Part shown: positions 27,994-28,855 of the stretch, in pieces
Layout: each line of letters opens with the position of its first letter
Position numbering within the stretch: position 1 is the stretch's first letter
Assembly (NCBI RefSeq): GCF_900116175.1
Contig: NZ_FPCH01000003.1
Coordinates: forward strand, 62,001 to 126,000
From: Hyphomicrobium facile
Lineage (GTDB): Bacteria; Pseudomonadota; Alphaproteobacteria; Rhizobiales; Hyphomicrobiaceae
Length of the DNA stretch: 64,000 nt
Reading direction: 5' to 3'
Notes under the pieces: model-generated
Told to the model about the DNA's origin: nothing
What the model saw: the letters and a program-made list of their open reading frames with translations, nothing else
The model's database searches: none
Made by a program: the position numbers and the translations under genes

Positions 27994-28235
27994 ATTGCGC
28001 GATTGTCGCGATTCGATCGCTCGATCGGCGTGTTGTTTTATCTTCGGTTAAGTTGATGGAACACGAGCGCGAAAAAAAATCCGCATAGGGGGCAAAAAGA
28101 TCTTGCGTAGGGGGGGCGTTGGCCTCATATGCACCCTCTCTCGTCTGTCCACCTGCCAACATGGTCGAGGTTTTCCAGAACCAATGAGGTAAGGAGCGGG
28201 CGAGTCAAACCTATCTGCTGGTTGGGGAGGGTCAC

Positions 28236-28790
28236 ATGGCCTTTAATGACACCCTCTTCCAATTGGGGATGGACTTGACTCGTTCAAGCACCGCCCAAGA
28301 GGAAGATTTTTCGCGCGCTGCGTTCAACACGGAAGTAGAAGACTCGACGAGTCCGTCTACTGAACAAAGCGTAAATAGTGCAGGGACTACGATCTTTATC
28401 GATCTCCACGGCGCCCAGCGCCTCGACGACGTCAAGTCGGCCGAGCGTGCGACAAAGCGTGCCGTCGAGAGCTTGGGCCTCAAGCTCAAGAGCCTCCACC
28501 TCGATCGCGTCGCCGGCGGCGGCGTGTCGGGTGTCGCGGTCTTGGGCTCCGGGCACCTGTCTTTGCAGGCTTGCTCGCGGACCGGCTTTGCCGCCGTCGA
28601 CGCGCGCGGTTGTGCGGGATTGAAGCCGTCATCGGCTTTGCTCGCCCTCGCTGAAGCGTTCGGCGCGCGCGAGGCTGTCATCCAGCGGGAGCGGACGCTG
28701 TCCACCCTGAACGTGCCTGCCCTTCGCGTCGTGCCAAGAGCGCCACGCAAGGTTCAGCGCCAGAAGGCCCAAGCGAAGAAAGCGGCTTAA
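28236..28790 (+). CDS. degenerate S-adenosylmethionine decarboxylase homologue (predicted inactive as a pyruvoyl enzyme)
   Basis: A 184-residue protein with ATG after GGGGAGGGTCAC. Residues about 50-150 match the prokaryotic SpeH/SpeD fold: FIDLHGAQRLDDVKSAER, GGGVSGVAVLGSGHL and GFAAVDARGCA. In active enzymes the SGVVVI(S/A)ESHLTIHT motif is cut between Glu and Ser to make the pyruvoyl group. Here Glu is Ser105, the pyruvoyl-forming Ser is Gly106 and the later catalytic His is Gln111; His107 and the conserved Cys (Cys126) remain. So it cannot self-process by the known route. A 45-residue acidic N-extension and a Lys/Arg-rich C-tail are added. Its own terminator follows. No spermidine synthase is adjacent. 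Confidence 0.75.
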   Translation: MAFNDTLFQLGMDLTRSSTAQEEDFSRAAFNTEVEDSTSPSTEQSVNSAGTTIFIDLHGAQRLDDVKSAERATKRAVESLGLKLKSLHLDRVAGGGVSGVAVLGSGHLSLQACSRTGFAAVDARGCAGLKPSSALLALAEAFGAREAVIQRERTLSTLNVPALRVVPRAPRKVQRQKAQAKKAA

Positions 28791-28824
28791 ACCGCTTCGC
28801 TCTCTTCAAGACCAGCGATAGTGG

Positions 28825-28855
28825 CCGCGATCGGAACTCTCCGATCGCGGTTTTT
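28825..28855 (+). terminator. rho-independent terminator
   Basis: CCGCGATCGGA (28825-28835) and TCCGATCGCGG (28840-28850) are exact complements around a 4-base loop and are followed by five T residues. It ends the AdoMet decarboxylase-like transcript and also separates it from the convergent MFS gene. Confidence 0.92.

Follow-up and report, generated by a model that had tools for sequence, protein, structure and literature searches.

A conserved AdoMet decarboxylase pseudoenzyme of Hyphomicrobium facile and the candidate RNA switch around the start of its gene

In this work we analyzed a stretch of 64,000 nucleotides from Hyphomicrobium facile (contig NZ_FPCH01000003.1, positions 62,001 to 126,000; hereafter the window). 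One of its genes encodes a conserved pseudoenzyme of the AdoMet decarboxylase (AdoMetDC) family, and no part of this gene is kept more rigidly than an RNA fold at its start (Table 1). The strongest signal is that the start region is conserved at the level of nucleotides; this points to RNA and had been missed by a sequence-only reading of the same DNA. Judged from sequence comparisons, we consider it rather probable that this element is a cis-acting translational switch for AdoMetDC, which would have been inherited class-wide and kept after the loss of the reaction.

Table 1. Features of the gene and its start region; positions are those of the window
Feature	Position	Strand	Basis or remark
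Promoter-like TTGCGT, 17-base spacer, CATATG	28103-28131	+	by eye; transcription start near 28138 if used
Leader stem P0 of Hyphomicrobiaceae, 28140-28145 with 28199-28204	28140-28204	+	28 distinct sequences
Structured RNA element (model R1) over ribosome site, ATG and codons 1-24	28210-28306	+	R1 118.6 bits, pair counts, synonymous freeze
Proposed OFF helix, 28211-28231 (including ribosome site) with 28252-28272, ATG in loop	28211-28272	+	RNAalifold, pairing
Ribosome-binding site GGGGAGGG	28224-28231	+	sequence; 5-12 bases 5' of ATG
Pseudo-AdoMet decarboxylase ORF, 184 aa, ATG start	28236-28790	+	translation, domain match, predicted fold
Proposed ON hairpin, 28255-28260/28301-28306, 28263-28267/28294-28298, 28274-28277/28285-28288	28255-28306	+	covariation
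AdoMetDC-fold domain, residues 52-150	28389-28685	+	profile match, predicted structure, pooled pN/pS 0.20
S105-G106-H107 replacing E-S-H	28548-28556	+	alignments
Gln111 replacing second His	28566-28568	+	alignments
Cys126, kept	28611-28613	+	alignments
Lys/Arg-rich C-terminal tail, residues 151-184	28686-28787	+	translation; ESH-intact relatives have one too (by eye)
Intrinsic terminator, hairpin 28823-28852, then T run	28823-28855	+	folding

The Pfam profile AdoMet_dc matches residues 53-150 of the encoded protein (E 1.3e-11, 45.3 bits; cut-off 25), and in a phmmer search AdoMetDC of T. maritima was matched (1tlu, 1tmi, 1vr7; 1.6e-5). Residues 51-150 are predicted with pLDDT values of 89-97 (means of 10-residue blocks) and the element order b-a-b-b-b-b-a-b; residues 1-50 are predicted to be disordered (block means 37-51). 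Among solved structures, the predicted domain is matched best by the T. maritima enzyme in its non-processing mutant form S63A (1tmi; E 9.6e-8, TM 0.76 by target length). Profile match, structure prediction and first structural match thus bear out the AdoMetDC fold that the sequence-only reading had proposed. As to membership in the SpeH family, the Pfam profile lies over its cut-off, and TIGR03330 with 45.5 bits stays under the NCBI equivalog cut-off of 75.65. The second histidine and the cysteine of AdoMetDC are catalytic. In the alignments S105-G106-H107 occupies the E-S-H columns, Q111 that of the second histidine and C126 that of the cysteine, just as had been read from the sequence. The pyruvoyl group of AdoMetDC derives from an internal serine (PMC10407285, excerpts). 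The earlier description of a strong ribosome site and a terminator also holds, with GGGGAGGG before the ATG and a hairpin (28823-28852) ahead of a T run, which folds with -23.5 kcal/mol (z -4.5); this terminator was absent from the output of a simple sequence scan.

The altered motif is not that of a lone mutated copy. The ORF protein matches 40 of 60 relatives, and AdoMet_dc is matched in 87 of 103 family genomes. Among the 22 genomes of the window's genus the motif is readable in 19 (and not readable in the remaining three), and ESH is absent in all 19, being replaced by SGH, TGH, IGH, DGH, SGQ or AGS. Groups named Hyphomicrobium at NCBI include other genera in this set, some of which keep ESH. 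Selection was analyzed on 15 of the 19 loci of the genus in which the motif is readable, and the ratios pooled from 8 within-genus pairs gave pN/pS values of 0.20 for the domain, 0.28 for the tail and 0.83 for the linker. The domain is under purifying selection in this genus, and the reading frame is open throughout the ESH-lost loci inspected. For the genus, the pooled value of 0.20 rules out a decaying pseudogene. Genus-wide motif loss, this ratio and the predicted fold together uphold the view of a retained, selected pseudoenzyme.

Across the family, loss of the processing motif goes together with absence of spermidine synthase (SpeE). When SpeE was called by PF01564 at more than 150 bits, the 87 family genomes comprised 39 with ESH lost and no SpeE, 32 with ESH intact and SpeE, 16 with ESH intact and no SpeE, and none with ESH lost and SpeE; at Pfam's own PF01564 cut-off of 22.9 bits the last cell would exceed zero. 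Weak PF01564 matches occur in six of the 39 ESH-lost genomes (G063, G106, G107 and G110 with 27-50 bits, G023 and G067 with about 21), most of them in long ORFs of other kinds, and were judged not to be SpeE. On the protein tree at least four changes of the ESH state are needed, a rough number as the tree rests on 102 columns and has several long branches. A test corrected for ancestry yielded 3 independent pairs on supported branches and was not significant, and the link between both losses hence rests on counts with shared ancestry. Several genomes are incomplete, which makes single absences soft. Outside the counted family set, L250, an AdoMetDC gene that carries the RNA element in a Hyphomicrobiales MAG, has ELH for ESH and many odd substitutions, and from its sequence it is possibly another dead copy.

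The genome of the window, 100% complete by the tool's figure, contains no second AdoMet_dc protein and no SpeE. It does contain nspC, encoding carboxynorspermidine decarboxylase (413.9 bits, cut-off 409.05), adjoined by an ORF that reads as CASDH-like. With E values up to 1e-60, nspC was found in 37 of the 39 ESH-lost genomes, 15 of the 16 ESH-intact genomes without SpeE and 9 of the 32 ESH-intact genomes with SpeE (compared by hand). A carboxyspermidine route has been reported for Sinorhizobium meliloti (PMC13293326, abstract). Probably, this second route to spermidine freed AdoMetDC. The earlier suggestion that the protein regulates an active decarboxylase as its partner fails because the genome lacks any other AdoMet_dc protein as well as SpeE and has an AdoMetDC-independent route. 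The trypanosome AdoMetDC prozyme (PMC5201418, PMC6221367), likewise a dead AdoMetDC homologue, acts on an active paralogue, whereas the window's genome has none; a prozyme-type partner was rejected for this genome, as no second AdoMet_dc match is present. Three of the 22 genomes of the genus (G002, G005 and G021) carry a distant second AdoMet_dc homologue (L096, L097 and L095, respectively) with the motif ETSH, in which the serine is kept. These distant second homologues, and also the further ones L083 and L094, are without the RNA element described below.

We regard it as very improbable that the protein has been neofunctionalised or is still an active decarboxylase by another route. Its fold and C126 are kept, and AdoMetDC homologues from SpeE-free genomes often decarboxylate ornithine or arginine (PMC10407285, excerpts), a setting that the window protein shares. 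However, those pyruvoyl enzymes require the internal serine, in place of which the window protein has Gly106, so that a pyruvoyl ornithine or arginine decarboxylase was rejected for this protein, and a complete E-S-H triad was found in none of the 39 ESH-lost genomes. Compared with class 1b AdoMetDC (SpeH/SpeD; T. maritima TM0655, PDB 1tlu, 1tmi), the fold, domain length, cysteine and GVSGV strand are the same, but S-G-H stands for E-S-H and Gln for the second His, a SpeE partner is lacking in the window's genome and the TIGR03330 equivalog cut-off is missed. Our guess is that the present-day protein most likely works without catalysis, e.g. by binding AdoMet or a polyamine. Of the 16 family genomes with ESH kept and SpeE absent (L088-L090, L100-L110; genera g41 and g42 and two g8 genomes), some may be neofunctionalised by the criterion in the excerpted text of PMC10407285, and genus g42 has a serine in place of the catalytic cysteine.

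At the start of the gene, none of 14 comparisons within the genus revealed a synonymous difference in codons 1-24, with dS values of up to 1.6 in the domain, and CTC TTC CAA TTG is invariant in 82 family loci. A 54-base core has 5 variable positions among 36 ESH-lost loci, 6 among 31 ESH-intact loci with SpeE and 8 among 15 ESH-intact loci without it (from 36 of 39, 31 of 32 and 15 of 16 genomes, respectively). Of the two tails that the sequence-only reading took for additions to the protein, the N-terminal one corresponds in its 24 residues to the coding half of a class-wide RNA element, and the Lys/Arg-rich C-terminal one is also found by eye on ESH-intact family members. That the start region is conserved for the protein, with a functional N-terminal motif and unusual codon bias and with RNA folds as by-products, appears quite improbable to us: the reading frame is kept, the peptide LFQLGMDL is common to several families, and within the family so little of the sequence varies that few positions can covary, but the lack of synonymous changes within the genus, the equal fixation of the bases 5' of the ATG, compensatory changes across the class and the predicted disorder of residues 1-50 speak against it.

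To follow the element across genomes, the covariance model R1 was built from 24 sequences; the alignments comprised 24 (A2), 29 (A6) and 39 (A5) chosen sequences and 47 loci (A7). Within the family, R1 has matches in 91 of 103 genomes (73 of the 76 good ones); in the class Alphaproteobacteria 31 of 385 genomes were matched and in the phylum 14 of 398, the latter 14 all belonging to Alphaproteobacteria. In each of the 31 class genomes the match lies within 150 bases of an AdoMet_dc domain (compared by hand). AdoMet_dc is present in 157 of those 385 genomes, and thus most AdoMetDC genes of the class are without an element detectable by R1. For 30 strong AdoMetDC loci, 11 forward R1 matches were obtained (E up to 0.1). 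An exact pattern retrieved 69 stretches from a collection of 84,980 species, all 69 in frame at an AdoMetDC-type gene, although five of them end before the domain, so that the shared N-terminus alone speaks for these. Named carriers include Filomicrobium, Methyloceanibacter, Rhodomicrobium, Cucumibacter, Kiloniella and Pelagibius; one carrier is a 3.2-kb contig labelled Chloroflexi, which is perhaps misbinned. The element is translated in frame at the class loci and therefore serves RNA and protein simultaneously.

Rfam searches with the window (up to E 10) and with 20 class loci gave no match apart from sub-threshold ones to unrelated families, and on this ground a known RNA family was rejected; such an element was found neither in searches of open-licence papers nor in Rfam. 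In six relatives, contigs end in or adjoining the start of this gene (L032-L037, L044; G016, G022, G035, G015, G031, G003). The repeated element suspected from such contig ends was discarded, as this region is single-copy in the window's genome.

We are confident that the structured RNA as such is real. Two mutually exclusive folds were compared on 47 sequences (46 distinct), with L118 on the minus strand left out. In the ON hairpin 94.9% of the cells are paired, against 36-68% in slid versions, both sides have changed in 9 of 15 pairs, and 27 such cells compare with 5.1 in shuffles (reached in 0 of 500); the alignment was fitted to the ON hairpin structure, so that its counts favour that structure. 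For the OFF helix, 92.7% of the cells are paired, against 44-65% in slid controls, a value reached by 18 of 500 shuffles. Its covariation is weak, with a score reached by 30 of 500 shuffles, and out of five measures four are reached by 18-38 and the fifth by 5 of 500. Within the family RNAalifold prefers the OFF helix, with both-side changes in none of 42 pairs. The duplex of the ribosome site with its own partner barely beats those with permuted partners (388 of 5000).

The energies of the OFF and ON folds are -32.4 and -31.8 kcal/mol for the window and -27.5 and -30.3 kcal/mol as means over the 47 sequences. In the ensemble, the anti-ribosome-site strand is paired upstream with 0.35 and downstream with 0.58, and both pairings exceed 0.05 in 30 of the 47 sequences. 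As a whole, the window RNA does not stand out in stability (z -1.64), and 12 of 200 shuffles fold equally well. The leader stem P0 has some support in the family: 92.5% of its cells are paired, and 7 cells changed on both sides compare with 1.9 in shuffles (0 of 500), although the number of pairs with both-side change, 2, is reached by 99 of 500 shuffles. A pseudoknot between CAUC of the leader and GAUG, proposed by eye, was dropped since it is broken in L131.

In the proposed switch, the leader (CAUCURCUGG and the ribosome site) would pair with codons 6-12 in the OFF fold, leaving the AUG in a loop. In the ON fold, codons 7-24 would form their own bulged hairpin and thereby sequester the strand that would otherwise mask the ribosome site. 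The balance between both would be tipped by a metabolite or a protein linked to polyamine or AdoMet status, and the switch would work for AdoMetDC across Alphaproteobacteria. The genus of the window possesses the carboxyspermidine route, has no SpeE and has lost the processing serine of the decarboxylase, but selection has maintained the proposed switch and the fold. Direct sensing of a metabolite by the element is a tentative suggestion. Equally tentatively, the element might represent an undescribed class of alphaproteobacterial riboswitches with its sensing part in the AdoMetDC coding sequence, which would have outlived its reaction several times in Hyphomicrobiaceae.

Alternatively, the element could be a protein-bound operator at which AdoMetDC or another RNA-binding protein represses translation. 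Going by the sequences, the basic tails in the family and the dedication of the element to the AdoMetDC gene would fit such an operator, whereas class members that carry the element but do not belong to the family have no basic tail at their end (by eye), and we hold it to be unlikely. Similarly unlikely in our view is that the start region is kept for a separate job, such as that of a small RNA derived from the mRNA or of a leader peptide of 24 residues, with the AdoMetDC domain as a departing passenger. This would agree with G098, a genome without an AdoMet_dc Pfam match, in which the element, the N-terminus and the basic tail are kept in a 114-aa ORF whose catalytic core has been lost in frame, and with genus g44, where an unchanged element precedes a barely recognisable AdoMetDC domain. 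Both cases favour the RNA as the best-kept part; it does not follow that the protein is idle. The purifying selection on the domain in the window's genus, the open frames of the ESH-lost loci and the occurrence of the element in the class on AdoMetDC genes only argue against a passenger.

The candidate switch shares with the speF element (RF00518) that it is an alphaproteobacterial RNA at a polyamine gene. In the excerpted text of PMC1273637, the speF element consists of a stem and, after it, about 80 conserved bases that fold into a long stem-loop with bulges, and it lies upstream of ornithine decarboxylase, whereas the window element spans the coding start, and the RF00518 covariance model did not match it (Rfam search up to E 10). 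That 2005 search for structured RNAs in alphaproteobacteria worked from intergenic regions (PMC1273637, same excerpts), and thus an element lying half inside a gene is easily missed by such searches. Here, the RNA element passed for a conserved protein N-terminus. The spermidine riboswitch that is a SAM-I variant also provides RNA control of polyamine genes including speD, but it has a four-stem SAM-I architecture and acts by transcription termination (PMC10853860, excerpts); the window element has no Rfam match.

Lineages whose enzyme is dead serve as natural experiments: they show what stays once the reaction is gone and can narrow the possible ligand. Where SpeE is missing as well, this pathway is expected to yield little decarboxylated AdoMet or methylthioadenosine. 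If the riboswitch reading is true, the unchanged switch in these lineages would therefore point to spermidine, putrescine or AdoMet. The absence of SpeE, the alternative spermidine route, the lost pyruvoyl serine and the frozen switch together make the function of the pseudoenzyme directly testable.

A consensus promoter scan returned nothing at 28103-28131, where the promoter-like hexamers were seen by eye. Similar TTGC...CATA blocks stand at the same place in many of 34 family leaders (by eye). The region 28080-28131 of the window combines G runs with a conserved TTGC...CATA block before the presumed transcription start, an arrangement common to many family members.
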